A DNA stretch of 64,000 bases, taken from the NCBI GenBank assembly GCA_001044335.1, contig CP011001.1:682001-746000 (forward strand), written 5' to 3'. The DNA is from Methylophilales bacterium MBRSF5 (GTDB lineage Bacteria; Pseudomonadota; Gammaproteobacteria; Burkholderiales; Methylophilaceae). Under the pieces are notes generated by a model. It was given only the letters and a program-made list of their open reading frames with translations, was not told the origin of the DNA and ran no database searches. Every line of letters begins with the position of its first letter. Position 1 is the stretch's first letter. Made by a program: the position numbers and the translations under genes. Positions 20,741 to 49,833 of the stretch are shown here, in pieces.

Positions 20741-21346
20741 CTAAAGATTATGGATAGTTAATGTTGCACCGTAAAAGTCAGTGTCTACAACGTGTTGATT
20801 TTGGTAGCTCAGCGGATCATCTGAATTTGAGTAATTTCGAATTTCATTGTATTTTCCAACATGGGCAAAAGGCGGAATGATTACGTTGTCATGAACCACT
20901 ACATTGGATTGAATTACAGCTTGAGGGCCAATAACGACTCCTTCTCCGATAGATACGAAATTTCCTACTTTGACTTGACGGCCAATCTGGGTTCGACTGC
21001 CTACAATTGAGTGGATACCAATACTTACTTTTTGACCAATGGAGCAGGATAAATCAACGAACGCCCCTCTTGCCAACTTTGCTGATATATCTTCTTGTTT
21101 GAGAGGCTGAAGTTTTGGAAAACTGCTTAGAATTTGATAAATTTGTGCACGATACAAACCAAAATTCCTTGGCGATACAAAATTTATGACCTCACCCTCA
21201 TTGTTTTCAATAGCTTTAATAAATTGCGTTTCATCGTTACGATCAAACAAAACTTGAACTGTAGTGGTGTTATCAAATTCGAAATGCGCCATTTTAGCCT
21301 TAGAAAAATCAGAATTATCGTGAATAATAATTAGTTTATTTTGCAT
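20741..21346 (-). CDS. Hexapeptide-repeat sugar acyltransferase (PglD/NeuD-like)
   Basis: A 201-residue protein with a left-handed beta-helix domain from about residue 85 to 175, shown by hexapeptide repeats (VGSRTQIGRQVKVGNFVSIG, VVIGPQAVIQSNVVV). The N-terminal 80 residues could be a nucleotide-binding or substrate domain, as in PglD, but the usual glycine-rich start is not evident. It probably acetylates an amino or hydroxyl group of a nucleotide sugar. It overlaps the start of the Rieske gene by 11 bases, which suggests that the two modify the same residue. Confidence 0.78.
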   Translation of the reverse strand: MQNKLIIIHDNSDFSKAKMAHFEFDNTTTVQVLFDRNDETQFIKAIENNEGEVINFVSPRNFGLYRAQIYQILSSFPKLQPLKQEDISAKLARGAFVDLSCSIGQKVSIGIHSIVGSRTQIGRQVKVGNFVSIGEGVVIGPQAVIQSNVVVHDNVIIPPFAHVGKYNEIRNYSNSDDPLSYQNQHVVDTDFYGATLTIHNL

Positions 21347-22439
21347 ACACTTCTCGGTCTAAAAATTCATTAATGCGAACATTCTGGTTTTCATAATCAC
21401 CTAAATTTTGCATATCTTGACCGTTCTCGATCTGCTTTTGCAGACCCTCAACAGCCACAAAATCTTCTTTTAAAACCACCTTTGCTTTTTCAAACCATTC
21501 ATAAAAGACCGCCAAACTCGGTGTTTTTCCAGTTGCTTGAGTAATAAAAAAACTTAAGTCTAAGCGTGTTTTATTAGGTGAAATGGGGACGAAATTCTCC
21601 ACTGCAAATAAAGTTCCACCATCAGGTGATGGAATATGGGTGTATGGAAATAATAACCAATTTAAATAGGACTTGCCATCATCGCAACACATAAATTCAG
21701 ATTTATATTTTTCTGGAGGAAGCTTGTTTTCACCATCCCGGCTAAAATTAGATAGCTCAGCAAGTTCTGTAATCGGTTGATTATTAATTACAGGTTCCTT
21801 AAATGTTGCAAAAAAATCTACCTCTTGTGTTAGAGAAGTAGGATGCAAATATAGAGGATGAACACAGTCTCTGAGGTTTTCAAAAATAAGCTTCCAATTG
21901 AAATTAAGCTCGATTGACAATGATGCAAATGTTTTATTGAGCATTCCTTTGGTCTTATTTAAATTATTTAAAACTTCCTCACCAAATTGCTCTTCAATGT
22001 CAATAGGAAAATCATCCCCATTGATAAATAAAAAATCGCCTAATTGTTTGATGGATAGTTTTTTTAAACTCATCTGTGAAATTTCTGACTGATTTAATCC
22101 ATACATTTTCTCAGCAAATGGAATATTTTTTACATGCCCATTCGACTCGTAAGACCAACAGTGATATGGACAAATTAATCTTAGAGGACCATAGGGCTCT
22201 GATACGATTGGATGACCACGATGTAAACACTTGTTATAAAAAGCATTAAACTGATCATTCTCTTTAGTAATAATTACTTCCCCAATTGGAGAGTTAATTA
22301 ATACATAACTGGATTGAGTTTGGTCAAACTCAGGAACAGCAGCTGCATAAATCCAAAGCTTAGAAAACAAATGCTCTTGTTCTTTATAGAAATATTCTTG
22401 TTTATGATATCTTAAGTAATCTATTCGCTTCATATGCAT
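21336..22439 (-). CDS. Rieske-type non-heme iron oxygenase, alpha-subunit-like (1 of 3)
   Basis: A 367-residue oxygenase. The [2Fe-2S] Rieske ligands C71, H73, C90 and H93 lie in CLHRGH and CPYHCW, and the mononuclear iron triad is D191/H194/H199 (LRDCVHPLYLH) with a later acidic ligand in KEDFVAVE. All metal ligands are present, so it should be active with an electron-donor reductase encoded elsewhere. It is a paralogue of the genes at 22568 and 38210. Linked acyltransferase and glycosyltransferase genes suggest a glycan or lipid-linked substrate. The start could be the ATG at 22439 or at 22433. Confidence 0.87.
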   Translation of the reverse strand: MHMKRIDYLRYHKQEYFYKEQEHLFSKLWIYAAAVPEFDQTQSSYVLINSPIGEVIITKENDQFNAFYNKCLHRGHPIVSEPYGPLRLICPYHCWSYESNGHVKNIPFAEKMYGLNQSEISQMSLKKLSIKQLGDFLFINGDDFPIDIEEQFGEEVLNNLNKTKGMLNKTFASLSIELNFNWKLIFENLRDCVHPLYLHPTSLTQEVDFFATFKEPVINNQPITELAELSNFSRDGENKLPPEKYKSEFMCCDDGKSYLNWLLFPYTHIPSPDGGTLFAVENFVPISPNKTRLDLSFFITQATGKTPSLAVFYEWFEKAKVVLKEDFVAVEGLQKQIENGQDMQNLGDYENQNVRINEFLDREVYAK

Positions 22440-22567: not shown

Positions 22568-23782
22568 ATGAAAAATATAATTAAGAATACACAGTCTTTA
22601 TTAAAATTTGGATATCAAAAATCTAATCTACTTTACCAGGCGATCAAATATAAATTAAATTTAACCTCTCCTTATATACTGCCAAGAGAATACTACATAA
22701 GTGAAAAAATACTCGAAAAAGAACATAAAAATCTTTTTGAAAAATATTGGATTTTTGCCGGCCTTACTCATGAAATTAAAGAGAACAAATCATGGGTGAG
22801 GAAAAAAATTGGTCATCGTGAAATATTATTAGTGCATGAAGATGGAAAATATTTTGCATTAGAAAATGTGTGTCCCCATAAAAATATGCAGTTGTGTAAG
22901 GAAAGTAAAGGTAAAGGAACATTTGTTTGTGACTATCATGCATGGTCCTTTAACTGTGACGGCTCGGTAAAAACTATCCCTTTTCATGACCGAAGTTATA
23001 AATTTAATAAAAAACAACAAAATTTCTCAAACATGAGCAAATTTCAAGTTGTAGCTGTTGGGGCGTTCATATTCGTAAAAATTAAAAAAAGTAATATCAC
23101 TATTCAAAACCAGTTTGACCCAGCAATCATTAAATCTCTCAAGCTTATGTCAAAAATGTTACAAGATCAGTACGGTACTTTTTTTGAGGTCCGTGACTTT
23201 AATTGGAAATTAAATTTTGAAAATTTAAGAGACTCTCTCCACCCCCCTGTACTTCACTCAAAAACACTTGGCAAGGAAGTGGATTTTTCGGCACAGTATG
23301 AGGATGTTCCAAAAATATATAAATTACTTGGTCGAATATCTCTAAAATATGCATCCTCATTTACCAAAGACGGAGACAATATCAAAGGTAAAAAAGGTCA
23401 CTTAGATGAGATAATTAAACCCTCATTTTCTAATGGTTATTACAATTGGCTTTTATTTCCTAACTTTCATATGGCCACCCCTGATGGAGGTAGAAGCTAT
23501 AGTATTGAAGTTCACAATCCTGTAGGTCCTGATAAAAACGAGATTTCCCACTATGTGATTGTCAATAAAGCAAATGACCCTGACGATGTATTTATGGATG
23601 AGATTATTGAACACCGACTAAGAGGACTAAGACCAGTTCTAGATGAGGATTATGAAGCATGCGAAAGAGTCCAAAAAGCCATCAAATTTACAAACAGGGA
23701 ACAAAATGTGGGTTGCTATGAACATTACAATATAAACATAGCTAAGATGTATAAAAAAATATTAAATAAATACTTTTTTTAG
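22568..23782 (+). CDS. Rieske-type non-heme iron oxygenase, alpha-subunit-like (2 of 3)
   Basis: A 404-residue oxygenase with Rieske ligands C102, H104, C121 and H124 (CPHKN and CDYHAW) and the mononuclear iron motif D222/H225/H230 (LRDSLHPPVLH), plus DEDYEACE near the C-terminus. It has about 35 more N-terminal residues than its two paralogues. It is the only plus-strand gene in the island and has its own promoter. Its 3' end overlaps the end of the convergent gtrA-like gene by 21 bases. The substrate is unknown. Confidence 0.87.
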   Translation: MKNIIKNTQSLLKFGYQKSNLLYQAIKYKLNLTSPYILPREYYISEKILEKEHKNLFEKYWIFAGLTHEIKENKSWVRKKIGHREILLVHEDGKYFALENVCPHKNMQLCKESKGKGTFVCDYHAWSFNCDGSVKTIPFHDRSYKFNKKQQNFSNMSKFQVVAVGAFIFVKIKKSNITIQNQFDPAIIKSLKLMSKMLQDQYGTFFEVRDFNWKLNFENLRDSLHPPVLHSKTLGKEVDFSAQYEDVPKIYKLLGRISLKYASSFTKDGDNIKGKKGHLDEIIKPSFSNGYYNWLLFPNFHMATPDGGRSYSIEVHNPVGPDKNEISHYVIVNKANDPDDVFMDEIIEHRLRGLRPVLDEDYEACERVQKAIKFTNREQNVGCYEHYNINIAKMYKKILNKYFF

Positions 23783-29839: not shown

Positions 29840-30126
29840 AATTTAATTTCTTTAAATGATATTTTTCTATTATTTAAAATTTGTAATATAAGTTTTACTC
29901 TATTACCAAAAAATAAATTTTTAAATATTATAAAAATATTATTACATTGGTTTATTTCTAGATTAAAAAAATCTAGAAATTCTTGCTCAATTACTTTTCT
30001 TGAAAACCCAAAAGGATTGAAATAATGCAATGAATATTTATCAATTTTTTTTCTTTTTAAAATATCAGTAACCTCATCATTGGATATATTATAAATTATC
30101 TTAACATTTAAAATTTTTTGACTCAT
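29836..30126 (-). CDS. Hypothetical protein, 96 residues
   Basis: A basic protein (many K, N and I) that I do not recognise. It has an ATG start at 30126 inside the 3' end of the membrane protein gene (overlap 26 bases), and its stop overlaps the rfbF start by four bases. This tight packing on the same strand argues for a real gene. No signal peptide or clear membrane span is seen, only a moderately hydrophobic stretch (NIFIIFKNLFF). It could be a remnant of a longer enzyme. Confidence 0.5.
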   Translation of the reverse strand: MSQKILNVKIIYNISNDEVTDILKRKKIDKYSLHYFNPFGFSRKVIEQEFLDFFNLEINQCNNIFIIFKNLFFGNRVKLILQILNNRKISFKEIKL

Positions 30127-31477
30127 GTCCCTTAAAATCCTTTATTAACTCAGGAAATAAATCATAATAATTTGGATCACAGTGACCAACAACATAGGAT
30201 TTATTCTCTGGCTTAATTATCTGAGATAGACATGCATGACCCCAAGACCAATCATAGACAAAATAATTAAACCTTTTTTTGTAAAATCTTTTATCATCTT
30301 TGAAATTTAAAAGAAACTCATCTTGTAAAATATAGGGTGTTGGATTAATTTCAATATATTTTTTAAAATCATTTAGATAACTTTTAAACTCGTACGCTTT
30401 AATGAACATGAATAAAGTATTTATTAGGAAAATAATAATAAGTGTATTTAAAGATATTTTAATAAAACCATTAAACTTTTCTAGGCTAAAAAGAAATATA
30501 AATGATGTAAAAAAAATAATAATTAATAAGAACATAGTTTTTGAGAAATAAGAATTAGATGGGTAGTGGTTAGCAGTGTTTGCTAATATACAAAATACGG
30601 CAACTACAAATAAAATAATAATTCTTACTTTTGATTTTTTTTGTTTTTTATCATTTTTATTATTAGCGGTAAAAAAAATTATTGTTGATATGAGCATAGC
30701 TGCAACAAAATATATAATTGTGTCGTATATAAAACCATCTGGCTGTCTATAGGCATATTCAGTTAGCCCCTTAAGACCGTTGGTAACTATTTGAGCATCT
30801 AGTGAAAATTTAGAGCTCAAGATTGCTAAAAGAGAGATTATCAATAATCCAATTTCGGGGATAAAATAATTAATCTTTTTTTTATTGTGGTGATGATTAA
30901 AAAAAATAGTTAATAGTAATATAGAGAAAAATGGAAAAACATCGTATGAAAGAATTAAAATAAATATTGAAATATTAAATATTATTCTGGCTGTTACATC
31001 CTCTGGTAAATCCTTTAATTGAAAAAAAGATGCAATAATGAGGGGTATTAGGGGATATATTAAATTATATTCACCAACAGCAAAAAAACTGTAAGGAATA
31101 TAAAACAAAGATACAATGAGAAAAAAAATAAAGTATCCTATTTTTTTGTAGTCATTTTTGAAGAGCTGAATTGCTCCAAATGAAATTAAAAATGGGATAA
31201 AAAAACCTAAAGCAAATATTTTTTCCGCAATAAAAAGATCTTTAACGTGAAATTGTTGAGAAAAAATCATTGGTATTTTTAATAAAAATTGACTTATAGA
31301 CCTTGTTGGTATTTCAGAAAATACGCCCTGATAAAAATTTTCAAGCAAAATACATGCGCCATCTGCAAATAAATATCTTTCAAAAAAAATCCTATCTGCA
31401 AACAGAACAACTAGTGAAACAAAAGCCAAATAGAAAATTAAAGACTCTTCTTTTACTTTGTGAGTTATAAAATCCAT
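30101..31477 (-). CDS. Multi-span membrane protein, probable GT-C-type glycosyltransferase
   Basis: A 458-residue protein with about ten predicted helices and a C-terminal extracytoplasmic tail of about 85 residues. The first periplasmic loop contains acidic residues (FADGACILLENFYQG), as in GT-C enzymes that use polyprenyl-phosphate sugars. The position ahead of the CDP-sugar genes fits a surface glycan role. I cannot name the family with confidence; an O-antigen polymerase is another option. Confidence 0.55.
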   Translation of the reverse strand: MDFITHKVKEESLIFYLAFVSLVVLFADRIFFERYLFADGACILLENFYQGVFSEIPTRSISQFLLKIPMIFSQQFHVKDLFIAEKIFALGFFIPFLISFGAIQLFKNDYKKIGYFIFFLIVSLFYIPYSFFAVGEYNLIYPLIPLIIASFFQLKDLPEDVTARIIFNISIFILILSYDVFPFFSILLLTIFFNHHHNKKKINYFIPEIGLLIISLLAILSSKFSLDAQIVTNGLKGLTEYAYRQPDGFIYDTIIYFVAAMLISTIIFFTANNKNDKKQKKSKVRIIILFVVAVFCILANTANHYPSNSYFSKTMFLLIIIFFTSFIFLFSLEKFNGFIKISLNTLIIIFLINTLFMFIKAYEFKSYLNDFKKYIEINPTPYILQDEFLLNFKDDKRFYKKRFNYFVYDWSWGHACLSQIIKPENKSYVVGHCDPNYYDLFPELIKDFKGHESKNFKC

Positions 31478-32190
31478 GTTGCACCGCCATCCATAATCAC
31501 TGTTTCACCTGTAATAAATTTAGACCCTTGAAGACATATAAAAGCCACAGCATTTGCCACATCCTCGGGTGAACCCAGGCCTAATGGATAATCATGAATA
31601 TTATTCACTGCGTTACCAATATTTCCCTCCCATAATGGTGTGTCTATGGCTGCTGGTGCAATCGAGTTGACAGTGATATCTTTCTTCAATAAATCTCTGG
31701 CCAACCCATTAAAAGCTGCATCACAACCAGCTTTTGAAGCCGCATACGCCACAGTATTATTGGCGCCAATATAGGCAGAGATTGAAGAAATAAAAACTAT
31801 TCTGCCTGGTTTGTTAATTTTATTAGCGCGGAGTAAATTTGAAACAAAGTCTAATGTTGAAATAAGATTAGATTCTATTACATCTCTAATAAATTTTTTT
31901 GATAACATACGCATTGGTCTAGCGCCAATGATTCCATGACAGAGAATTAAATTATCAAAAGCTTCTACCTCTTTTGCAAATTTTTTAACTGCTTCCTCGT
32001 CATTTAAATCCAAACTTACCGGCACTACTGAATTATTTTTAATTTTATTTAATTTCTCCTCAGACCTGCCGAGGGCAATTACGTTTTGACCCGAGCTTGT
32101 AAATAACTTAACAATCTCTTCACCCAAACCACCAGTCGCACCAGTGACAAGTGTCGTTTTACCATTAATTTTTGCTAAATCATCAAGCAT
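31465..32190 (-). CDS. Short-chain dehydrogenase/reductase, FabG-like (1 of 2)
   Basis: An SDR of about 241 residues with TGATGGLGEE, an HGIIGA active-site region, Ser in FISSISAYIG and the catalytic YAASK. The C-terminal GETVIMDGGATW matches 3-ketoacyl-ACP reductases. The ATG at 32190 is favoured over the upstream ATG because it sits directly before the nucleotide-binding strand. It is the last of four genes (ACP, KAS III, SDR, SDR) that look like a dedicated acyl-building module. The first codons overlap the upstream SDR. Confidence 0.85.
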   Translation of the reverse strand: MLDDLAKINGKTTLVTGATGGLGEEIVKLFTSSGQNVIALGRSEEKLNKIKNNSVVPVSLDLNDEEAVKKFAKEVEAFDNLILCHGIIGARPMRMLSKKFIRDVIESNLISTLDFVSNLLRANKINKPGRIVFISSISAYIGANNTVAYAASKAGCDAAFNGLARDLLKKDITVNSIAPAAIDTPLWEGNIGNAVNNIHDYPLGLGSPEDVANAVAFICLQGSKFITGETVIMDGGATWIL

Positions 32191-32908
32191 ATCGTGACTT
32201 TCCAAGCATACGTCCGGCATCTGCAGCAATCATTTGTCCATTAATCCATTTGCTCCTTTGTGATATTAAAAATAAAAATGGCAAAGATGAATAATCTACA
32301 GGACTTACCCCAATGATATCCTTGTCATTAACTTCAACGCTGTTTGACATATCAGACTCAACATAATCAAAAGATGCCACATTAAAGCGAATTTTATTAG
32401 AAAAGGATACATCTGCGACCAAAGAGCGAGCTAACCCCAACAATCCCATCTTGGCAGCCGCATAAGGAGCGGTGCATGGCGGATGACACAATCTGGCAGC
32501 CGCTGAGGTAAGTACTACAGATCCTGAGTCTTTAATTTTTTTTGACTTGAGTAAGTGTCCTATTAAAGACATGGGCGATGTGAGATTGGTGGTGATTTGC
32601 GGTTCGATCGTTTTTCGTTGCAACATTTTTGGTGGAACAAGTTTGACAATCCCACTGACTACACACACCGCATCTAATACTGGTAACTCTTGAACCAGGT
32701 GTTTTATGGACTCGTCATCATTGATGTCGCATGCGTAATAATTGGTGTTTAATTCTTGAGCTAATTCTTTTAACTTTTCTTTATTTCTTGACGAGAGAAG
32801 GGGTCTGGCTTTGAGTTTTGCTAAGTCAGAAGACAACTGTCTGCCAATCCCCTGACTTGCACCCATCACCAAGATGGTTTTATTTTCTAAGTCTTCAAAA
32901 AAATTCAT
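32183..32908 (-). CDS. Short-chain dehydrogenase/reductase, FabG-like (2 of 2)
   Basis: A 241-residue SDR with GASQGIGRQL, VVSGIV, catalytic Ser in LTSAAARL and YAAAK. It is a divergent paralogue of its neighbour. The pair could carry out two successive reductions (3-keto, and another keto group), or one may act as dehydratase-like enoyl reductase; this is inference. Its start shares the stop codon region of the KAS III gene. Confidence 0.83.
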   Translation of the reverse strand: MNFFEDLENKTILVMGASQGIGRQLSSDLAKLKARPLLSSRNKEKLKELAQELNTNYYACDINDDESIKHLVQELPVLDAVCVVSGIVKLVPPKMLQRKTIEPQITTNLTSPMSLIGHLLKSKKIKDSGSVVLTSAAARLCHPPCTAPYAAAKMGLLGLARSLVADVSFSNKIRFNVASFDYVESDMSNSVEVNDKDIIGVSPVDYSSLPFLFLISQRSKWINGQMIAADAGRMLGKSRYA

Positions 32909-33948
32909 TAGTCATATAAGTGAAAGCTTTTTTCCTGTCCGTTTGCAACGTATCCTAATGTCGACCATGACAAACCGATCCCAAAGCCACACATAATTGT
33001 TTTAGTACTTTGATTGTTCCATTTTCCATCAAGTCGAGCAGTCAACGTTATAGGTATAGAAGCACTGGAGGTATTGCCATGGTCAGATAATGACTCTGGA
33101 AACTTCTCTATCGGGAGTTTTAACTTCATCCGAATTGTGTTATTGATCATTTTGTTCGCCTGATGCAACACAAAATAATCAACCTCTTCCATTTCTAACT
33201 GCATTTCTTTAGCCATTTTAGTGAGCTCATCGGGCACTAATCCTACTGAGAAATTATGAATCGCAGGACCATCCAGCACCACATCTGTTCCAGAGCGCAT
33301 CACACCAGTAGAGTCTAACTTTACGTCATGAGAATCTCGAGTCACAGGTCTTACTTTTCCTCCATGAGGGATGTACAGCGCCTCTAAGCCAGAACCGTCT
33401 GTACCGCAACTAAAGTGTGCTGAATGTTCATGACCTAGGGTTACACTGGTAACCGTACAACCATCGCCAAATAAAACTCCATGCCCTTCATCGGTCGTAC
33501 CGGGACTGTAACTTTGATCACCAACAACGATCAAGACTCTTTTCATACCAGACATTAAATGACCGTGAGCCACAAACAACCCATAGGGATAACCGGAGCA
33601 ACCCAAATTAATATCATACGCCAAGGTCGATTTGCCAAAATGACATCGGTCTTGCAATAACACGGCAGTTCCAGGAATAATATAATCTGGTGATTGGGTT
33701 ACTACAATAATGCCATCCACATCATCCGTGGATAACTTTAACTCTTTAAGCAAAAAGTTTATCCCTGTTTCACCTAAAGTTGAAAATCTTTGTCCTTCAC
33801 TGCAAACATATTTACTTTCAATGCCAATGGACCGCGATAGTCGCTTGATCTTATCACTCGAATCTTCTTTAATAACATTTATTTTTTTTGCAGGGCTTAC
33901 AGAGACCAGGCCCTCAATAAATAAATTGTTCAATCCAATGTGTTTCAT
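32908..33948 (-). CDS. Beta-ketoacyl-ACP synthase III family protein (FabH-like)
   Basis: A 346-residue thiolase-fold enzyme with the Cys-His-Asn triad: Cys in DINLGCSGYPYG, His in FVLHQANKMI and Asn in DHGNTSSAS. It should condense an acyl-CoA or acyl-ACP with malonyl-ACP. Being in a polysaccharide island next to its own carrier protein, it is probably not the housekeeping FabH. It overlaps the ACP gene by four bases. The product may be a short hydroxyacyl group put on an amino sugar. Confidence 0.88.
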   Translation of the reverse strand: MKHIGLNNLFIEGLVSVSPAKKINVIKEDSSDKIKRLSRSIGIESKYVCSEGQRFSTLGETGINFLLKELKLSTDDVDGIIVVTQSPDYIIPGTAVLLQDRCHFGKSTLAYDINLGCSGYPYGLFVAHGHLMSGMKRVLIVVGDQSYSPGTTDEGHGVLFGDGCTVTSVTLGHEHSAHFSCGTDGSGLEALYIPHGGKVRPVTRDSHDVKLDSTGVMRSGTDVVLDGPAIHNFSVGLVPDELTKMAKEMQLEMEEVDYFVLHQANKMINNTIRMKLKLPIEKFPESLSDHGNTSSASIPITLTARLDGKWNNQSTKTIMCGFGIGLSWSTLGYVANGQEKSFHLYD

Positions 33949-34172
33949 TTTGAAACCATATCATACAACTGTTTCGGAGTGACTTGATCTTCCCATAACT
34001 TTTCTCCATTAACTTGGTGATCAAACTCAATCTCACAAAAAGTCATAACCCCTAGGGTAGCCAAAGAATCGAAATCAGGAATTTGACAGAACGAGAGATC
34101 AGGATCAAGGGAGGTTATATCCGGTAGGTCAATTGCTGTAACCAAACCGTCTAAAAAATCGTCGAAACTCAT
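33945..34172 (-). CDS. Acyl carrier protein-like
   Basis: A 75-residue acidic protein with the phosphopantetheine attachment motif in PDFDSLATLG, where the Ser of DSL is expected to be modified. Length and acidity match ACPs, though helix I is divergent. It starts the module ACP-KAS III-SDR-SDR and is separated by one base from the GT2 gene upstream. It probably carries the growing acyl chain for the enzymes encoded downstream. Confidence 0.83.
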   Translation of the reverse strand: MSFDDFLDGLVTAIDLPDITSLDPDLSFCQIPDFDSLATLGVMTFCEIEFDHQVNGEKLWEDQVTPKQLYDMVSK

Positions 34173-34173: not shown

Positions 34174-35016
34174 TTAAAACCTTTTTAAAAAAAATATTTG
34201 AATTAATTTGATTGCTACATATGCAATTATACCTTTCAAAATAACTAATAAGTTAAAAAACCGTAAACTTTTTAAGGAAATAATTTTTTTTGCCAACAAA
34301 TAATTAACCTGAAAATTAAATAAGTAAGTTGATCTTAAGGTGCCTTGCATTACGTTGATGGTTTCCAGGGTTTTATCAATCTGATAAATATCACTTTGAG
34401 TTGACCAAATCCCTGCAGCATGAACTCTATAAAAAAAACTAGGCTCTTTGATAATTTTTGCAGGGCCATGTTGAAGCAGCTGCATAAATAATGGGTAGTC
34501 CCCTAAGGGCAAATCAATATAAGCTGGGTCAATTCTTGAAATAATTGTTCTTCTGAAGACCACGGTGCCTAGTTGGATAAAATTTCCTAACGAGAGGATG
34601 GAGGCTGAGACATTCCCGTAAAATTTTGAAATGGATTGTTTATCTCGTGTCCCTTTATAAAATCGGGAGCCTACAAAACTAATGTCTTTTTGGTTATTTA
34701 ATATTTGGCTTGCGGTTTCAAGGTATTTGTCATTGACCCAATAGTCATCCCCTTCTAAAATAATAACCAAATCTCCTGAGGCATGTTGAAGTAATTTATC
34801 AATATTTTTAAGGCCGCCTTCATTTTTTTCCCACACGAACAACTGGATTCGATCATCTTGTTTTGCCAATTTTTCCACCACGTGTGCTGTTGCATCCATT
34901 GAAGCATCGTCCCCTACCAGTATTTCAATATCTTTAAAGGACTGGTTTATTGCCGACACAATCGTTTGTTGAATAAAACTCTCTTGGTTAAAAGTGGGAA
35001 TCAGAACGCTTATCAT
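34174..35016 (-). CDS. Glycosyltransferase family 2
   Basis: A 280-residue GT2 protein with VLIPTFNQESFIQQTIVSAI at the N-terminus, DDASMDAT and the metal-binding region in EGDDYWVND. The C-terminal 60 residues are hydrophobic and basic, consistent with membrane association. The donor and acceptor sugars are unknown. It sits between the DegT aminotransferase and the ACP gene. Confidence 0.86.
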   Translation of the reverse strand: MISVLIPTFNQESFIQQTIVSAINQSFKDIEILVGDDASMDATAHVVEKLAKQDDRIQLFVWEKNEGGLKNIDKLLQHASGDLVIILEGDDYWVNDKYLETASQILNNQKDISFVGSRFYKGTRDKQSISKFYGNVSASILSLGNFIQLGTVVFRRTIISRIDPAYIDLPLGDYPLFMQLLQHGPAKIIKEPSFFYRVHAAGIWSTQSDIYQIDKTLETINVMQGTLRSTYLFNFQVNYLLAKKIISLKSLRFFNLLVILKGIIAYVAIKLIQIFFLKRF

Positions 35017-35038: not shown

Positions 35039-36121
35039 TTAATTTATAGAATTAATCACCTGAAATACCTTCTTGATCTCGTCAGGTTTCAAATGCAGAT
35101 GAAAGGGGATACCGATGGTGGTTTGAGCTAACATATCTGTCTGCGGCAGGCTATAGGAAGCAAATTGCCTTAAATATTCATTGGCATGGCAGCCTTGATT
35201 CCACCAATCACGCCACTCAATATTATTCTTATCAAACTCTTTAATTAAAAGTTGTTTTATTTTTTTATCTTTGCAATGAATGACGCACGTGGATGAAACA
35301 TAATCAACCCCCCAACCTTGCATGAAATGTATGTTGGGATTGTCTAAAGAGGATAAAAATTTGTGGGCTAATTGAAGATACTTTATTTTTGTTTTGTTCC
35401 AAAACTTCAAGGTAGGAATACCAATAGCGGAATGAATTTCACTCAACTTATGATTTAACCCAGCCTGAATAGAATCTCTTTTGTTAATAAAACCAAAATT
35501 AGAATACGCACGGGCAGACTGAATAATTTTTTTTGATGGTGAATATAACAATCCACCTTCACCAATGGCAAATACTTTAGTCGCATGCATCGATATGACG
35601 ATTGACAGTCTTTTGTTAAATGCATTATCAAATCCAGCTGCTGCATCTACCAAGATTGGAATTGAATATTTTTTGGAAAATTGTCTAGGGCCAGTATCTC
35701 GAATGGGTTTGCCAAACGGGGCCACAAGAAGCAGTATGGCTGTTTCGTTTAATACTCGTTTTGGAACTTGATTTAATTGGTCCTGAGATGGCTGCATTGT
35801 TTTAAGATCAACATCTAGATAATAGGGAACCAAGCCAGCTTCTTTAATAGCCTGCACGGTTGCCACAAATGTCCAGGAAGGAACTAAGCAATATTTTTTT
35901 TTTGGTGCACTGATCGCCTTGATTGCAGACACTAATGCTGAAGTGCCACTGGAAAATAACTCAATATAGTCGCTATCTACATTGAAAAAATGTGCTAACT
36001 TATTTTTAAACTGATTGTAAAGCGGCCCAAAATTAGCAAACCATAAGTTCTTATGCATTTTTGTTAAATATTGTAGGTAATATTTTTTATCGATCATGTA
36101 AGGCTTAAACAGATTAATCAT
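35039..36121 (-). CDS. DegT/DnrJ/EryC1/StrS family aminotransferase
   Basis: A 360-residue PLP-dependent enzyme of the sugar aminotransferase family. The catalytic Lys lies in SMHATKVFAIGEGG, so unlike RfbH this one can transaminate. LFSSGTSALVSAI is the phosphate-binding region. It probably makes an amino sugar from a keto sugar nucleotide, which would supply the amine for the acyl module or for the linked acyltransferase. The product cannot be named from sequence. The ATG overlaps the upstream permease stop. Confidence 0.85.
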   Translation of the reverse strand: MINLFKPYMIDKKYYLQYLTKMHKNLWFANFGPLYNQFKNKLAHFFNVDSDYIELFSSGTSALVSAIKAISAPKKKYCLVPSWTFVATVQAIKEAGLVPYYLDVDLKTMQPSQDQLNQVPKRVLNETAILLLVAPFGKPIRDTGPRQFSKKYSIPILVDAAAGFDNAFNKRLSIVISMHATKVFAIGEGGLLYSPSKKIIQSARAYSNFGFINKRDSIQAGLNHKLSEIHSAIGIPTLKFWNKTKIKYLQLAHKFLSSLDNPNIHFMQGWGVDYVSSTCVIHCKDKKIKQLLIKEFDKNNIEWRDWWNQGCHANEYLRQFASYSLPQTDMLAQTTIGIPFHLHLKPDEIKKVFQVINSIN

Positions 36122-37544: not shown

Positions 37545-38186
37545 TTAATTCATTTTTATTGATTTTGGGGTCACTAATTTGGATCCAGAAGGAAGGTCCC
37601 TTAATACGGTAGCGCCTGCACCAATGACACAGTCATCTCCAATGTTAATATTATTGCCAATAATAGCCCCAGAATGAATATTATTGCGGCAACCTATGGC
37701 TGAATTACCACCTATGATTACATTAACGCCAATATGATTAAAGTTGCCAATGCGGCACTCATGAGCGATAACGGTTTGACTATCTATAAAATTACCAATA
37801 CCTACCGAAGTTAGATTGGATATCTTACATCCAAAATAAATGCCTGATTGAATTGAGGCTGCATCAGCAAAGTTAGTATCGACTCTGAAGTCATGAATTT
37901 GGTCATCAGAAATATTGTATTTTTTAACAAATTCAAACTTATAGTTTGGATCACCAACTCCTAATAAAAAACGATTTTTCTGATCAGAAGAATCAAGGTC
38001 ATCAGGAGAAATGACCTCATATGGCATCCCATTATTCCTCAGGATTGACTTAAATTGTTGTCTATTTTCTTTCCTATCATCCAAAAAACCCATAAAACAA
38101 TTTCCTGCCCCCGGTACTTTTATAAATCTGTTTGCAATATCAAAAGCAAAACCAGATGTTCCTAAAACCCATATATGTCTGTCCAT
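37545..38186 (-). CDS. Sugar O/N-acyltransferase, NeuD/PglD family
   Basis: A 213-residue protein with an N-terminal Rossmann-like nucleotide-sugar-binding part (WVLGTSGFAFDIANR) and a C-terminal left-handed beta-helix of hexapeptide repeats (IGNFNHIGVNVIIGGN, IGDDCVIGAGATV). His in VIAHECRIGNFNHIG fits the catalytic base. It probably transfers an acyl group to a UDP- or dTDP-amino sugar, and with the DegT aminotransferase and acyl module nearby it is a candidate for the acyl transfer step. Confidence 0.85.
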   Translation of the reverse strand: MDRHIWVLGTSGFAFDIANRFIKVPGAGNCFMGFLDDRKENRQQFKSILRNNGMPYEVISPDDLDSSDQKNRFLLGVGDPNYKFEFVKKYNISDDQIHDFRVDTNFADAASIQSGIYFGCKISNLTSVGIGNFIDSQTVIAHECRIGNFNHIGVNVIIGGNSAIGCRNNIHSGAIIGNNINIGDDCVIGAGATVLRDLPSGSKLVTPKSIKMN

Positions 38187-38209: not shown

Positions 38210-39280
38210 TTATTTTAAAATCCTGCGATAAACCGCATGAAATCTTTCGATCATTCTCTCATAAATACCATTGCTAGGCATCATAATAAGATTATTGTTC
38301 ATTTTGGACTGTATTTTTTCAAGCAAAGAAAAGTCCTCTTCGTAAACTAAGTTTGATGATTTTGTTAGACGATTTAAAAATTGAATCAGCTTGTAATTGC
38401 GTAAATTGTGCTTAGTGAGAAGATAACTTATATTAATCTTAGTTTGATTGGCGCTAATGGGTTCAAAAAATTCAACCACAAACGTTGAGCCATTATCGGC
38501 ACTGGCAATATGAACATTAGGAAACAAATGTAAGTTAAAGTATCGATTGCTACAGTTCCATGGATCTTTAAACAATTTAGCATAATCAGGTTTTCGAATC
38601 TCGACATCCAAGCCCCCAAAACTCAAAGACTTAATATTCAACAAGAAAGTTGGAATCCATTTTGGTATTCCAGGTAAACCGCTTTTCACAGACTGCATTA
38701 AAGTTTTTTTATGAACAAATAAAGGGTGTAGTGGATCTCTTAGATTATCAATGATTAATTTCCAATTAAAATACCTTTGCTTAACTTCAGTGTGACTTTC
38801 TTCAATACAGTTTGAAATGCTTATGAGTTCATCAATAATTTTAGTTGAAAATTGTTTTGTTAAAGGAATTGGTCTTTTTGCAAAATTAATAAACATAAAC
38901 TTTCCAACAATGTTCAGTGCTATTGAGTGCAAGCCTATATTATTTGAATTGAGCTTATATAACTCCTGATTAAAGGGGATGTTGTTCACAACACCATTTA
39001 ATTTAAAACTCCACCCGTGGTATGGACAGGTAATCAGATTTCGGTCACATTGCTCTTCTGCAACTAACTCTGCAAAACGATGTGGGCATTGATTCAAAAA
39101 AACATGATGTGATTTTCCATCGAATGTAAACACAAGATCCATGCCTAAGATATTTTTTTTAACAATTTTATTTTTAGTAAATTCGAAGGTAAACCCAGCA
39201 AAAATCCAATATTTAAAAAAAATATTTTTCTTTTCCTGATTGAATATTTTTTCACAACTATAGTAATTTGATGAAAGCAT
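38210..39280 (-). CDS. Rieske-type non-heme iron oxygenase, alpha-subunit-like (3 of 3)
   Basis: About 356 residues from the ATG at 39280 (a TTG six codons upstream is less likely). Rieske ligands are C65, H67, C85 and H88 (CPHRF and CPYHGW), and the iron triad D182/H185/H190 (LRDPLHPLFVH) is in the same spacing as in the two paralogues, with EEDFSLLE as the later acidic ligand. The shared NIPF-loop after the Rieske domain shows the three are one subfamily. The start overlaps no gene, but the upstream GT2 ends two bases away. Confidence 0.86.
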   Translation of the reverse strand: MLSSNYYSCEKIFNQEKKNIFFKYWIFAGFTFEFTKNKIVKKNILGMDLVFTFDGKSHHVFLNQCPHRFAELVAEEQCDRNLITCPYHGWSFKLNGVVNNIPFNQELYKLNSNNIGLHSIALNIVGKFMFINFAKRPIPLTKQFSTKIIDELISISNCIEESHTEVKQRYFNWKLIIDNLRDPLHPLFVHKKTLMQSVKSGLPGIPKWIPTFLLNIKSLSFGGLDVEIRKPDYAKLFKDPWNCSNRYFNLHLFPNVHIASADNGSTFVVEFFEPISANQTKINISYLLTKHNLRNYKLIQFLNRLTKSSNLVYEEDFSLLEKIQSKMNNNLIMMPSNGIYERMIERFHAVYRRILK

Positions 39281-39281
39281 A

Positions 39282-40214
39282 TTAACCGGCCAACCCAACT
39301 AAAAAGAGCAACATAAGGGACTCAATACAACTTTGTCTTTGGTAATTATTTTTTAGAAATAACTTTAATTTTTTCAATCTTGAGGATTGCATAAAATTGA
39401 TAAAGTCATCAACTTGGCTTGCCTTAGAAAGATGTCCCCAGCACTTTTGATTTTGGGACAATACCTCACTAATATTGTACTGATGTTGAAAATAATTTTG
39501 TGAAACAACCTTAGCAATCGTTTTATATATGCGCATAAATAAATTAACTCTAAAACCAATGAGGGAGTCATGATGCTGCCGATAAAACAACAAAGGTCGA
39601 TCATCTAAAATGACTTCTACATCATGGATCATTGAAACAATATAACACCACCAGTCATGCGATGGAATTTGAATACCTTTTGTATTATATTGCGTCAGAA
39701 TATTTCTAAATGTGCTATTAAATGCCATGGTGTTACCACCAGTAATATTTTCAAAAAAAGAATTTTCTAGTGACGGACTGACCATTTCATGATTAGTAGC
39801 ACCAATACATGTTTTATCATCATTTATGATTATTTTGGAGCTGGAGTAAAGGATCGGTTTGTTATTGGAGTGTCGTTTAAAGCAGTCCACAATGTAATCA
39901 AGTTTTTTGGGTACCCAAAAATCATCTTGATCACAAAATAAAAAAATATCCGCTTGTATATTTTTTTGATTTACTAATGATAAAAAATTATTAACATAAT
40001 CTTCTTTTGGACCTTGTTGGTAAAAAATCTTATCTGGATATTTTTTTTGATACTGGGCAATGATCTGATATGTTTTTTTTGAAAATGAATCATCACTGAC
40101 ATAGAGTTTAAAATGCATATAAGTTTGCATCATTATCGAATCTAACTGATCCAAAATAAAATATTCATCTTCAAACGTCGCCATCAAAATAGCAATTGTT
40201 GGATGTTTATGCAT
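39282..40214 (-). CDS. Glycosyltransferase family 2, rhamnosyltransferase-like
   Basis: A 310-residue GT2 protein with AILMATFEDEYFILDQLDSI, YVSDDS and the metal site in CDQDDFWVPKK. DQDDFW and the N-terminal pattern are shared with rhamnosyltransferases such as RfbF/RgpB types in O-antigen loci, which fits the dTDP-rhamnose genes in the island. A hydrophobic C-terminus is present. It overlaps the next GT2 gene by eight bases. Confidence 0.85.
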   Translation of the reverse strand: MHKHPTIAILMATFEDEYFILDQLDSIMMQTYMHFKLYVSDDSFSKKTYQIIAQYQKKYPDKIFYQQGPKEDYVNNFLSLVNQKNIQADIFLFCDQDDFWVPKKLDYIVDCFKRHSNNKPILYSSSKIIINDDKTCIGATNHEMVSPSLENSFFENITGGNTMAFNSTFRNILTQYNTKGIQIPSHDWWCYIVSMIHDVEVILDDRPLLFYRQHHDSLIGFRVNLFMRIYKTIAKVVSQNYFQHQYNISEVLSQNQKCWGHLSKASQVDDFINFMQSSRLKKLKLFLKNNYQRQSCIESLMLLFLVGLAG

Positions 40215-41064: not shown

Positions 41065-41628
41065 TTATTTACTTCCATGATACTGCATCAAATATTTTTG
41101 AAAGGATATGCCGAGTTTGTCTTTCTCTGATAGGATTGGATCAGACAATAATGGCCAATCAATAGCAAGGTCATCATCATCATACAAAATACAAACCTCA
41201 CTTTCTTTCGAGTAAAAATTCGTTGCTTTATATAAAACCTGAGCTGATGCTGATAAAACTAAAAAGCCATGAGCAAATCCAGGTGGAATCCATAGTTGTT
41301 TAGTATTCGTTGCTGATAACAATTCCCCCACCCACTGACCTCTTGAAGGCGAATCAGGTCTGATGTCAACAGCTACATCAAAGACTTCACCCTCAATGAC
41401 ACGAACTAGCTTTCCTTGCTCAAAAGGTGGACGCTGGTAATGCAATCCTCTAAGTGTATTTTGTTTAGACTTTGAATGATTATCTTGCACAAAATGGATA
41501 TCATCATGTAGCAAAGAATTAAATACATCTTGATTGAAAGACTCATAAAAGAACCCCCGGTCATCATTAAACACATTTGGAGTAATCAACTTTACTTCAG
41601 GGATTGCCAGAGAGGTTATGGTAGCCAT
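41065..41628 (-). CDS. rfbC: dTDP-4-dehydrorhamnose 3,5-epimerase RfbC
   Basis: A 187-residue cupin-fold enzyme of the dTDP-L-rhamnose pathway. [32 protein letters not shown] with the catalytic His, and [10 protein letters not shown] are all conserved. It is separated from rfbA, rfbB and rfbD by the GT-C, WecA-like and galE genes, so the rhamnose set is split in two. Confidence 0.94.
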
Positions 41629-45120: not shown

Positions 45121-45129
45121 TCTTAAGCA

Positions 45130-46002
45130 CTATTCAGATAAGACTTTCATGAGGTACTGGCCGTATTGGTTCTTCAGTAACGGCTTGGCTAAGTCTTCTA
45201 ATTGGGGTGCACTAATCCACCCTTGACGATACGCCACCTCTTCCGGGCAGGCTACTTTCAACCCCTGGCGGTTTTCAATGGTTGAGATGAACTGACCTGC
45301 ATCGAGCAATGAGTCATGCGTGCCGGTATCCAGCCAGGCATAACCTCGGTCCATGATCTCGACACTGAGATTTTTTTGAGTGAGGTATAATTTATTCAGA
45401 TCGGTAATTTCCAATTCTCCACGAGGTGATGGTTTGAGGCTCTTGGCTAAACACACCACCTGCTCATCATAAAAATACAAACCCGTCACCGCGAAGTTGG
45501 ATTTTGGCTTGCTGGGTTTTTCCTCTAAGGAAATGACTTGATTATTGTCATCAAACTCTGCCACACCATAGCGTTCTGGATCATGCACATGGTAGGCAAA
45601 CACGGTAGCCCCAGTTTCTCGTTGATCTGCGGACTGGAGTAACTCTTGCAGGTCATGTCCGTAAAAAATATTGTCTCCCAATATTAACGCTGACGGATCG
45701 TCGCCAATAAATTCTTCGCCTAATAGGAACGCTTGGGCTAAGCCATCTGGGCTCGGTTGGACCTTGTATTTAAAGTTCACGCCCCACTGCGATCCATCAC
45801 CCAACAGAGACTCAAATCGTTGTGTGTCTTCAGGTGTTGAGATGATCAAGATGTCGCGCATGCCGCCGAGCATGAGTGTGGTCAGCGGGTAATAGATCAT
45901 CGGCTTGTCATAGACTGGAAGGAGTTGTTTAGAGATGGTCTGTGTCACCGGATACAGTCGGGTCCCTGAGCCACCTGCCAAGATAATGCCCTTACGATTC
46001 AT
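45130..46002 (-). CDS. rfbA: Glucose-1-phosphate thymidylyltransferase RfbA
   Basis: Makes dTDP-glucose, the first step to dTDP-rhamnose. About 290 residues starting [20 protein letters not shown], with [20 protein letters not shown] and EEKPSKPKS conserved. The ATG at 46002 has a GGAAGG ribosome-binding site and is preferred to an in-frame start five codons earlier. It overlaps cysQ by four bases. Confidence 0.96.
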
Positions 46003-46787
46003 GTTTTTTCCTTCCAATTAAACTTTATGTTTTTATTTCGTACCGCGATCAGATCGGGGTTGAGTATTTTACTCACATTATAAACCAAGGATTGGTCATC
46101 TAAGGTATAGATCTCACCGCCAGTTTCTTTTAAAATCGCATGTCCGGCCGCCATATCCCAGAGCGAGGTTGGCCCAAAGCGTGGATAGGCATCAGCCAAC
46201 CCCTTGGCCAACATAGTCAACTTTAAACTGGATCCTGCCGCAACCGTTTCGCCTTGGTGGTGCTGAATAAAATCTTTTGTTTGTTGATTGAGGTGTGACC
46301 TCGAGACCGCAAAAATCGGTGGCTGCCTTGTTTCATTTTGTTGCTTTAAAAGAGGTTGAGTCTCTCGGTCTTTTATCTTTTTTGCGCCAGCACCCTTTGT
46401 CGCCAAAAACGTTTCATTTGTCACGGGGATATGAATCACTCCCAAGACTGGCTGATGGTTCTCTATTAATGCAATGTTTACTGTGAATTCACCATTACCT
46501 TTAATAAATTCTTTGGTACCGTCGAGTGGATCGACACACCAAAAGGTCACAACATCCCCTTCTAATTCCTCCCCCTCCTCGCTCAAGATCGGGATCTCAG
46601 GTGTCAGTTTTTTTAATGCTTTTGAGATGATGTGATGTGAGGCTAGGTCAGCTTGCGTTAAAGGGCTCTGGTCACTCTTGGTTTGAACCTCAAAGTCATC
46701 CTGCTGATAGATTTGAAGAATCGCTTGACCGGCCTCCTCTGCAATGATTTTGACGTGATCGAGTAAAGTCTGGTCTAGCTCGATCAA
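45999..46787 (-). CDS. cysQ: 3'(2'),5'-bisphosphate nucleotidase CysQ
   Basis: A 262-residue lithium-sensitive phosphatase of the inositol monophosphatase superfamily that hydrolyses PAP to AMP. Metal-binding motifs [15 protein letters not shown] and WDMAAGHA are present. It lies directly downstream of cysC, and both are inside the rhamnose operon. PAP arises when PAPS is used by sulfotransferases or by PAPS reductase. Confidence 0.92.
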
Positions 46788-47368
46788 GTGAGATTAACTT
46801 TCTCTAAGATCAGCTGCACACATTCACTGATCGATTTATTTTGGGTGTCGATGATGACGTCTGGATTTTCGGGTGGCTCATAGGGAGAATCAATACCAGT
46901 AAATTCTTTAACCTCACCCCGTCGTGCTTTTTGATATAAACCTTTTACATCACGCTGTTCGCATTCTTGTAAAGAAGTTGAGATATAGATCTCTTTAAAT
47001 TGATTATCTTTAAAAAGACTACGTGCCCAGTCACGCTCTTGTTTAAACGGTGAGATTAAACCTGCAATCACAATCAGTCCGGCATCGACTATGAGTTTGG
47101 CTGCCTCGGCTGCACGCCTCACATTCTCATTACGGTCTGCTTTACTAAACCCTAAATCTGAATTGAGTCCGTGGCGCAGATTATCACCATCGAGGATATA
47201 AGTGTGTTTCCCTTTTTTGTTCAGCTCCTGCTCTAATGCATTGGCTAGCGTTGACTTACCCGCCCCGGAGAGTCCGGTCATCCACAGGCACACAGGTGTC
47301 TGGTGTTTGATCTTGGCCCGCTCGATTTGCGTCAAAGCGAACTGTTGGAATTTGATATTCTTATCCAT
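46784..47368 (-). CDS. cysC: Adenylylsulfate kinase CysC
   Basis: A 194-residue P-loop kinase that phosphorylates APS to PAPS. WMTGLSGAGKSTLANALE carries the P-loop, DGDNLRHGLNSDLGFS binds APS, and the core is free of an ATP-sulfurylase fusion. It is overlapped by rfbD (eight bases) and cysQ (four bases). No CysD/CysN or CysH gene is in the window. Confidence 0.94.
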   Translation of the reverse strand: MDKNIKFQQFALTQIERAKIKHQTPVCLWMTGLSGAGKSTLANALEQELNKKGKHTYILDGDNLRHGLNSDLGFSKADRNENVRRAAEAAKLIVDAGLIVIAGLISPFKQERDWARSLFKDNQFKEIYISTSLQECEQRDVKGLYQKARRGEVKEFTGIDSPYEPPENPDVIIDTQNKSISECVQLILEKVNLT

Positions 47369-48209
47369 GAATAATTTTATTTAACTCTTGTGACCAATCA
47401 TTAAAACTTAAGCCAAAAGATTTTTTGATTTTATCATTACTCAACACACTATTCGCCGGCCGTTTGGTTTTTGTTGGGAACTCATGAGTTGAAATGGGAT
47501 GTAAATTATCCAGATTAAATTTTGGATTCGTTTGACCAATAATTTCATTCGCAAACTCATGCCAGGAACAAGACCCATCCGGCACCAGGTGATAGATCCC
47601 GGTATTTATTTCAGAGAGTAGCGGGATGATACATTTGACTTGCTCGGCAATAAATTGGTTGGAGGTCGGAACACCAAATTGGTCTGCCACCACCTTGAGT
47701 TCTTCTCGTTCTTGGCTTAACTTTTTCATGGTGAGGTAGAAGTTGTGCCCGATGTTAGAATACACCCAGCTGGTTCTGAAGATATAAGTTAACCGACCGA
47801 CTTCTTGAATCGCCTCCTCGCCCGCGCACTTGGACTGCCCATAAATGCCTAAGGGATGGGTGGGATCATTCTCAACGTAAGCCTCTTTTTTCTCGCCATT
47901 GAATACGTAGTCGGTCGAGAAGTGAATGAGTGGGATATTATATTCGCTTGCCTTTTCCGCCATCACCTTGGGTGCGTCTTGGTTTATTTTAAAAGCCAAC
48001 TCAGGCTCGTCCTCAGCCTGATCCACTTTCGTGTATGCCGCGGGGTTGATGATCAGATCCGGTTGGTGCTGGTCGATGACTTGTTTGATTTTATCTAAAT
48101 TGGTCAGGTCGCAATCTTGTCGGGTGAGGCCAATTAATTCATGCTCGGTGAGTTCACGCATTAAGGCATGCCCCACCTGACCATTGATGCCCGTGATTAA
48201 GATCTTCAT
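47361..48209 (-). CDS. rfbD: dTDP-4-dehydrorhamnose reductase RfbD
   Basis: The last enzyme of dTDP-L-rhamnose synthesis; 282 residues. [10 protein letters not shown] is the NADPH-binding loop, FSTDYVFNG and the YGQSKCAGE catalytic pair follow, and FRTSWVYS is conserved. It overlaps rfbB by four bases and cysC by eight. Confidence 0.95.
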
Positions 48210-49264
48210 GAATAGTTTTTATTGAGCCAGTGTTGGTACTCGCCCGACTGAACGTTAGCGACCCAGTCCTGGTTATCCAGGTACCACTGGACCGTCTTAC
48301 GGATGCCGGTCTCGAAGGTCTCTTCCGGTTTCCAGCCAAGCTCATTACTAATCTTGGTCGCGTCAATCGCGTAGCGTCGGTCGTGTCCAGGCCGGTCTTT
48401 AACGAAGGTGATTTGGTCTTTATACGACTTGCCATCCTCGCGGGGTTGGAGTTCGTCAAGCAAGTCACACAAGGTATGCACGACATCTAAATTCGCCTTC
48501 TCGTTCCAGCCACCGATGTTGTAGGTCTCGCCAATAGCGCCCTTCTCCAACACGGTCGCAATGCCCTTGCAGTGGTCGACCACGTAGAGCCAGTCCCGGA
48601 TCTGCTGGCCATCCCCATAGATCGGTAGGTCTTGGCCCTGCAGGGCTTTGAGGATACAGAGAGGGATGAGTTTTTCTGGGAAGTGATAGGGTCCGTAGTT
48701 ATTGGAACAATTGGTTGTTAAGACAGGTAAGCCATAGGTGTGGTGCCAGGCACGAACCAAATGGTCTGACGCCGCCTTTGACGCACTATAAGGACTATTG
48801 GGTTCATACTGGTTCGTTTCTTTAAAAGCCGGGTCGCTTGCGCTTAAGGTCCCGTACACTTCATCTGTTGACACATGCAGAAATCGGAATTGTGTTTTTG
48901 CATCATCGCTCAACGTATTAAAAAATGATCGGACTTCCTCTAACAAGCGATAGGTGCCGATAATGTTGGTCTGCATAAAGTCATCCGGTCCGTGAATGGA
49001 TCGGTCGACGTGACTCTCCGCCGCAAAGTTCACAATGGCTCTGGGTTGATGTTCTTGAAATAGTTTGGCTAGTAATGTTGAGTCCCCAATGTCACCCTGC
49101 GCAAAAGCATAGTTTGGGTTGTTTTCCACTGACTTTAAATTCTCGAGGTTGCCCGCATAGGTCAACTTATCTAGGGCAATGACTTTTTCATTGTTGTTGT
49201 TTAACCAATTGAGGACAAAATTGGAGCCGATAAAGCCGGCTGCGCCGGTGACGATAATACTCAT
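48206..49264 (-). CDS. rfbB: dTDP-glucose 4,6-dehydratase RfbB
   Basis: A 352-residue extended SDR that makes dTDP-4-keto-6-deoxyglucose. [29 protein letters not shown] and the [10 protein letters not shown] catalytic motif are present, as well as [18 protein letters not shown]. It follows gmhA with a four-base overlap. G+C is high for this window, which hints that this part of the island has a different history. Confidence 0.96.
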
Positions 49265-49833
49265 GCTTTTAACTGTAATCCTTCTTCAATGAGGTCACAT
49301 AGAATATGGCCGATGGTGATGTGCATCTCCTGGATGCGTGCGGTGGTGTTTGAATTAATCACAATCGCTTCACTCACTAAAGATGATGCCTTGCCCCCAC
49401 CCTTACCTAATAAACCAATCGTGGTCATCTGTTTTTGGTTGGCGACTGCCAGAGCGTTTAACACATTCTGACTGTTACCCGAAGTAGTGATACCTACTAA
49501 CACATCCCCCTCAGAACCAAGACCCTCTACCTGGCGTGAAAAGATGTGTTCATAGCCATAGTCATTCACAATGCAGGTCATGACCGCCGAGTCTGCATTC
49601 AGTGATATCGATTTGAGGGCTTTCCGATCCCCAACGAAACGACCAACCAACTCGCCTGCTAAGTGTTGTGCATCAGACGCACTGCCACCATTACCGCACC
49701 AGAAGATGGTCTTACCATCCTGTAAGGCTTGAATCATGTTATTCGCCACCCTATCTATTTGTGGGGCTAATAACTCAAGGGTAGATAATACAGCTTGGTG
49801 TTCTTCGAGGTGTTTTTTAATGATTTCGTTCAT
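49261..49833 (-). CDS. gmhA: Phosphoheptose isomerase GmhA (SIS domain)
   Basis: A SIS-domain isomerase of about 190 residues that converts sedoheptulose-7-phosphate to D-glycero-D-manno-heptose-7-phosphate for the LPS inner core. [22 protein letters not shown] and [13 protein letters not shown] are the sugar-phosphate binding motifs. DiaA-like proteins share this domain, so the heptose role is a likely but not certain reading. The ATG at 49833 is chosen; the eleven codons before it include an unusual leader. It is the first gene of the rhamnose operon, and a TATAAT sequence lies immediately upstream of the ATG. Confidence 0.85.

Follow-up and report, generated by a model that had tools for sequence, protein, structure and literature searches.

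Among the closest described relatives of the locus reported here is the viosamine island of Pseudomonas syringae pv. tabaci 6605, which comprises vioA, vioM, vioT, vioS, vioB, vioR, and acp and has a homologous glycosylation island in P. aeruginosa PAK (PMC3927599). Mutants in vioA, vioB, vioT, and vioR lack N-3-hydroxybutyryl viosamine, and the island provides both genetic and mass-spectrometric precedent for an N-(3-hydroxybutyryl) amino sugar (PMC3927599). In Flavobacterium psychrophilum, one report describes wfpC–wfpG as encoding two ketosynthases and one reductase, with a 3,5-dihydroxyhexanoyl product that is carried on Qui2NAc4N (PMC6519341), and a published gene table lists XCV2007–XCV2013 in a Xanthomonas flagellar locus beside FleQ (PMC3826837). 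We compared with these systems a module of four genes, encoding an acyl carrier protein (ACP), a β-ketoacyl-ACP synthase III (KAS III), and two short-chain dehydrogenases/reductases (SDRa and SDRb), from Methylophilales bacterium MBRSF5. It lies in a stretch of 64,000 nucleotides (contig CP011001.1 of assembly GCA_001044335.1, positions 682,001 to 746,000), hereafter the window, to which all coordinates refer.

A probable acyl-building module within a larger cassette

We consider it likely that these four genes form the acyl-building core of a cassette gained by horizontal transfer, and that the cassette's product is a nucleotide-activated N-(3-hydroxyacyl) amino-6-deoxy-sugar destined for an O-polysaccharide exported by an ATP-binding cassette (ABC) transporter. 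This degree of confidence covers the acyl module and the transfer of its product to an amino sugar; a further oxygenation by Rieske enzymes is proposed more tentatively. The genes concerned are as follows (LbH, left-handed beta-helix).

33945..34172, minus strand: dedicated acyl carrier protein, 75 aa, with DSL serine S36 (homologue alignment, profile, AlphaFold2 model)
32908..33948, minus strand: KAS III with Cys117-His262-Asn292 intact (NCBIfam/Pfam, alignments)
32183..32908, minus strand: SDRa, a divergent SDR with the catalytic Ser replaced by Ala and Tyr and Lys kept (alignment; co-travels with type A Rieske)
31465..32190 (TTG start of the open reading frame at 32229), minus strand: SDRb, probable 3-oxoacyl-ACP reductase with N-S-Y-K intact (NCBIfam, alignment)
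35039..36121, minus strand: DegT/DnrJ-type sugar aminotransferase (PF01041, 2.5e-46)
37545..38186, minus strand: NeuD/PglD/VioB-type LbH N-acyltransferase (TIGR03570, 1.7e-28, below cut-off)
38210..39298, minus strand: Rieske oxygenase 1, all iron ligands intact (Pfam, alignment, model)
21336..22439, minus strand: Rieske oxygenase 2, directly upstream of Hex2 (alignment, tree)
20741..21346, minus strand: Hex2, an LbH protein paired with a Rieske gene (alignment)
22568..23782, plus strand (opposite): Rieske oxygenase 3, ligands intact (alignment)

The four module genes share the minus strand, and NCBIfam and Pfam confirm their families, the ACP excepted. They overlap by 4 nt (ACP/KAS III), 1 nt (KAS III/SDRa), and 8 nt (SDRa/SDRb, taking the ATG at 32190 as the SDRb start; 47 nt with the listed TTG), and an initial annotation that had described four overlapping genes here was accurate as to their positions, strand, and families. 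It had also credited the carrier with a DSL serine and the KAS III with an intact catalytic triad, and both hold. D35-S36-L37 of the ACP is invariant in 14 aligned homologues, of which 11 match PP-binding; the window ACP has no Pfam match of its own and is the least obvious of the four assignments. The ACP profile matches solved ACPs, and AlphaFold2 predicts with confidence an ACP-like fold of four helices (mean predicted local distance difference test, pLDDT, 90.4) for which Foldseek returns ACP folds with probabilities of about 1 and, the protein being short, weak E-values. In the KAS III, C117, H262, and N292 are invariant among relatives and align with C112, H244, and N274 of Escherichia coli FabH.

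An alignment-based KAS III query identified 80 named loci; an earlier scan with a single KAS III protein as query had given no match. These loci were picked for the resemblance of their KAS III to that of the window group, and the proportions given here apply to that family only. They occur in Massilia, Xanthomonas, Methylobacillus, Methylovorus, Polynucleobacter, Bordetella, Delftia, Acidovorax, Paraburkholderia, Pseudomonas, and Gemmatimonas, among others, and their genes commonly follow the order DegT-ACP-KAS III-SDRa-SDRb-NeuD-Rieske-Hex2, in a single direction and mostly gapless. Where 7 kb or more of downstream sequence was available (68 loci), SDRb is present in every locus, NeuD in 65, Rieske in 61, Hex2 in 54, and SDRa in 48; several loci carry tandem Rieske-Hex2-Rieske-Hex2 units, and at least 26 of the 80 adjoin a flagellin or sigma-54 activator gene (by a simple motif). 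There seem to be three grades of locus: a minimal grade that has ACP-KAS III-SDRb-NeuD and no Rieske (e.g., L060, L087, L106, and L111), a second grade with another Rieske type (e.g., L044, L083, and L109), and the full set with a Hex2-associated Rieske, here termed type A, to which the window belongs. Viral relatives are two only, and weak. One of them is a side observation in its own right: on a 124-kb viral-collection contig (L120:4726-9177, IMGVR_UViG_3300023174_000075), genes for an ACP, a KAS III, an SDR, a second KAS III, and a NeuD-like protein stand in a row, possibly a phage-borne module for acylating surface sugars. Its two-ketosynthase layout is that of F. psychrophilum.

The closest match to the window in gene order is a Polynucleobacter locus, L048, which reads glycosyltransferase-Wzt-Wzm-DegT-family 2 glycosyltransferase-ACP-ketosynthase-SDR-SDR-NeuD-Rieske-Rieske-Hex2, with RmlC further on. 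It links both layouts, since it has the window's order up to the family 2 glycosyltransferase and then the compact cassette. In the window the parts are rearranged: the DegT and NeuD-like genes stand in the minus-strand run of the ACP gene, about 1 to 4 kb upstream of it, and NeuD and Rieske oxygenase 1 are placed upstream of DegT. Read from gene content and order, the four genes are evidently part of a larger DegT-ACP-KAS III-SDR-SDR-NeuD-Rieske-LbH cassette, all parts of which the window holds. The initial annotation had combined the module with DegT and NeuD into a complete route. Both genes are confirmed, and both lie in an O-polysaccharide island, but the boundaries were drawn too narrowly: one or more Rieske genes and a second LbH gene usually belong, with NeuD and often DegT. 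That reading is thus partly supported, right in outline but without the conserved Rieske/LbH unit.

The grouping of Hex2, the SDRs, and the Rieske proteins is taken from trees and alignments rather than from profile scores, because the profiles were seeded partly with window sequences and the window's scores on them are circular. All three window Rieske proteins keep the C-X-H/C-X2-H cluster ligands and the D..H....H + D iron site. Rieske oxygenase 2 clusters with the Rieske-Hex2 copy of L048 (support 0.96), and one window Rieske protein scores only 71.7 bits against the 670-bit cut-off of the GbcA-type N-demethylating monooxygenase model. The model of Rieske oxygenase 1 (pLDDT 91.6) has the CntA carnitine monooxygenase as its closest fold. 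In the alignment, inspected by eye, the catalytic position of NeuD is not a conserved histidine in Hex2, and the relatives of the NeuD-like protein in the PDB are PglD and perosamine N-acetyltransferase. A 2-oxoglutarate-Fe(II) oxygenase family protein (18369-19145) is a further oxygenase in this island of three Rieske genes.

Predicted pathway and competing explanations

In the pathway that we propose, host FabD would load the dedicated ACP with malonate, and KAS III would carry out one condensation with a short primer, most likely acetyl, to give 3-oxobutyryl-ACP, as its family chemistry suggests. A single condensation is the simplest reading because the island holds one KAS III only. SDRb, with its active site intact, would reduce this product to 3-hydroxybutyryl-ACP. 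DegT would aminate a keto-sugar, most likely dTDP-4-keto-6-deoxyglucose (dTDP, deoxythymidine diphosphate) from RmlA and RmlB, and the NeuD-like enzyme, by the chemistry of its family, would attach the acyl group at the amine. Rieske oxygenases, as many as three and one of them paired with Hex2, may then introduce oxygen into the N-acyl sugar or into its acyl chain; their metal sites are intact, and we put this step forward as a possibility somewhat short of even. SDRa, lacking the serine, probably acts in the oxygenated branch or else partners SDRb without catalysing a step itself, and glycosyltransferases and Wzm/Wzt would place and export the sugar. Gene content, conservation, and intact or lost residues are observed here; the primer, the acyl length, the sugar, the order of steps, and above all the Rieske substrate and the role of Hex2 are what we infer from them.

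Several points weigh against this pathway. About 9 kb separate SDRb from the Rieske oxygenase 2/Hex2 pair downstream of it, the gene for Rieske oxygenase 3 runs on the opposite strand, and the island encodes no electron-transfer partner for the Rieske enzymes, the genome's only reductase with Fer2 and NAD-binding domains being at 1.315 Mb, outside it. Against VioA/DesI-type models the window DegT scores far below cut-off; it falls below every curated NCBIfam cut-off, with the precursor genes RmlA and RmlB present in the island. The replacement of FabH coenzyme A (CoA)-site residues in the KAS III family, discussed below, belongs here as well. A 96-aa open reading frame at 29836-30126 was considered as a ferredoxin and rejected: it has no cluster cysteine arrangement, and the genome's Fer2 matches are elsewhere.

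The two SDRs had been annotated as ketoreductase-like, and SDRb fits this better than SDRa. In the window SDRa, as in 25 of 42 SDRa sequences, the position of FabG S138 is occupied by Ala, while the SDRb counterparts keep Ser in 39/40 and Tyr and Lys in 40/40. SDRb is FabG-like rather than FabG, given its 129 bits against an equivalog cut-off of 298. SDRa groups in the tree with the first SDR of other loci. Judged by their active sites, the two are not equivalent ketoreductases, and only SDRb keeps the full N-S-Y-K set. The lost serine, next to an intact SDRb encoded by an adjacent and translationally coupled gene, could mean that the two assemble into a single hetero-oligomeric ketoreductase, with SDRa as a dead structural subunit and the Rieske genes acting elsewhere in the polysaccharide. 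We regard this as doubtful. In 20 of the 68 loci SDRa is missing, so that SDRb there needs no partner. Nor does a hetero-oligomer predict that SDRa should accompany type A Rieske, which is found in 46 of 48 loci with SDRa and 6 of 20 without (p = 3e-8, raw). The association persists after thinning at 85% KAS III identity (p = 6e-5, 44 loci); at 70% identity, which leaves only 11 loci, it is not shown (p = 0.18).

The choice of primer also bears on our proposed pathway. FabH residues W32, R36, R151, K214, and R249 (E. coli numbering), which we take to be the CoA/ACP-contact residues, are R, S, E, N, and M in the window KAS III. All five are replaced across the cassette family even though the catalytic Cys-His-Asn is kept, whereas the genome's own FabH retains them, and the window protein scores far under the fabH cut-off (152 versus 292 bits). 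These replacements make an acetyl-CoA primer uncertain, and both primer and carrier use may differ from those of FabH. One could go further and suppose that KAS III takes another acyl group, ACP-bound or unusual, and that the product is not 3-hydroxybutyryl. We think this rather unlikely: the functional precedent of vioS, vioR, and acp ends in N-3-hydroxybutyryl (PMC3927599), and in the cassette a reductase always stands next to KAS III.

The initial annotation had allowed for a short mono- or dihydroxyacyl group. A dedicated acyl-ACP module and the viosamine precedent suit the former; for a dihydroxy C6 chain a single ketosynthase is a poor match, and a C4 acyl group would seem likelier. Two rounds of extension, with each SDR reducing one keto group, could in principle yield a dihydroxyacyl such as 3,5-dihydroxyhexanoyl, in keeping with the two SDR genes and with the group that a related gene set makes in F. 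psychrophilum. However, that locus is described as having two ketosynthases and one reductase, the reverse of the window module; SDRa is without its catalytic Ser and tracks Rieske type rather than a second ketosynthase; and the two-ketosynthase layout, seen in the viral contig L120, is absent from the window. We hold this alternative to be improbable.

That the genes belong to housekeeping fatty acid synthesis or are decayed remnants is very improbable, for all frames are open with core catalytic residues intact, and the housekeeping version is ruled out by a separate, complete plsX-fabH-fabD-fabG-acpP-fabF locus (L039) about 100 kb away, so that these are not the genome's only fabH, fabG, and acpP, the case that the initial annotation had named as refuting its reading. 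The genome has two KAS III genes in all, that of the module and the housekeeping FabH, and the four genes are dedicated. Lateral gain is supported by absence from congeners, patchy presence in the family and order, and a jump in base composition. Neither the module KAS III nor a Rieske of the cassette family is present in any of the 30 congeners examined, and the module KAS III occurs in 12 of 187 Methylophilaceae genomes (the other eleven with assemblies of at least 2 Mb) and 11 of 399 genomes of the order. The guanine-plus-cytosine (GC) content is 40% over the module versus 28%–32% on some sides. The host genome is a single contig of 1,352,814 bases, and 1.3 Mb for a member of the Methylophilaceae suggests a streamlined planktonic lineage. 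Hence a streamlined 1.35-Mb genome pays for a multi-gene surface-variation cassette that the 30 sampled congeners are without.

The surrounding polysaccharide island

By its predicted gene content (DegT, the NeuD-like protein, Wzm/Wzt, glycosyltransferases, and a WecA-like protein at 41634), the island is of the ABC-exporter-dependent O-polysaccharide type. RmlA, RmlB, RmlC, and RmlD all score over curated cut-offs, and dTDP-4-keto-6-deoxyglucose should therefore be available. Counterparts in L048 are 41% identical for DegT and 39% and 57% identical for the exporter permease and ATPase.

34174..35016, minus strand: family 2 glycosyltransferase located between the DegT and ACP genes, as in L048
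36118-36849 (permease) and 36849-37535 (ATPase), minus strand: Wzm/Wzt-like ABC exporter (NCBIfam/Pfam matches)
41065..41628, minus strand: RmlC, dTDP-4-dehydrorhamnose 3,5-epimerase (TIGR01221, over cut-off)
45130..46017, minus strand: RmlA, glucose-1-phosphate thymidylyltransferase (TIGR01207, over cut-off)
47361..48209, minus strand: RmlD, dTDP-4-dehydrorhamnose reductase (TIGR01214, over cut-off)
48206..49264, minus strand: RmlB, dTDP-glucose 4,6-dehydratase, likely keto-sugar source (TIGR01181, over cut-off)

The block of galE, rmlA, cysQ, cysC, rmlD, and rmlB (44001-50000) has 43%–46% GC versus about 30% just upstream, and the sulfate-activation genes cysQ and cysC sit within the rhamnose operon there. 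RfbF, RfbG, and RfbH, the cytidine diphosphate (CDP)-3,6-dideoxyhexose set, lie at 26702-29839, each over its curated cut-off; relatives 48%–62% identical to them adjoin a cassette locus of Delftia (L035/L080). Three large proteins (42679-44118, 30101-31477, and 19236-20612) match nothing in the 80 cassette loci. Pfam assigns no family to the first two, and those at 30101 and 19236 have, by eye, a multi-pass membrane look. Scans of the window for promoters and terminators gave no useful information; promoter-like sites were fewer than in shuffled sequence.

Comparison with known systems

In the gene table, XCV2007–XCV2013 has the cassette's set and order: Rieske, acetyltransferase, SDR, SDR, KAS III, ACP, and aminotransferase. 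It lies in a flagellar cluster, unlike the window, and the table gives genes without a product or function (PMC3826837). The F. psychrophilum locus shares with the window an ACP, ketosynthase, reductase, and PglD-type acyltransferase for a hydroxyacyl group on an O-antigen amino sugar; unlike the window, wfpC–wfpG come with no mention of a Rieske protein in the accessible part of the report (PMC6519341), and they include two ketosynthases where the island has one. CntA and related Rieske monooxygenases resemble the window Rieske in fold and metal sites (TM score about 0.77), but identity is only 19%–20%, no dedicated reductase gene stands beside the window gene, and its context is glycan synthesis.

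The open-access literature on Rieske enzymes in O-antigen, flagellin, and N-acyl sugar pathways yielded the Xanthomonas gene table only, and we found in it no structure for the product of a Rieske-bearing cassette and no paper on an analogy to CMP-Neu5Ac hydroxylase (CMAH) in bacteria. That hydroxylase offers a comparison for the oxygenation of sugars. We suggest, with some hesitation, that the Rieske-Hex2 pair together with SDRa is an undescribed tailoring unit that oxygenates the N-hydroxyacyl amino sugar at the nucleotide-sugar stage and may give rise to oxidised flagellin and O-antigen sugars in many Beta- and Gammaproteobacteria. In that case bacteria would have a functional counterpart of CMP-Neu5Ac hydroxylase built on a Rieske fold of the ring-hydroxylase type. 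Unusual N-acyl groups on amino sugars set serotype and, on flagellins, host and phage recognition, and the dereplicated gene set and predicted order of steps make the cassette's sugar directly testable in strains such as those of Methylobacillus or Massilia.

All five classes of the viosamine island (VioA, VioB, VioS, VioR, and ACP) are encoded together in the window, the two loci sharing a DegT aminotransferase, a NeuD/VioB acyltransferase, a KAS III, an SDR reductase, and a small ACP. The viosamine island serves flagellin, whereas the window holds an island with an ABC O-polysaccharide exporter. The seven viosamine open reading frames include a methyltransferase and no Rieske, second SDR, or Hex2, all of which the window has. 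By this analogy, the core chemistry of the cassette would be that known from the viosamine island, and the Rieske/LbH tailoring unit would be the part without a counterpart there.

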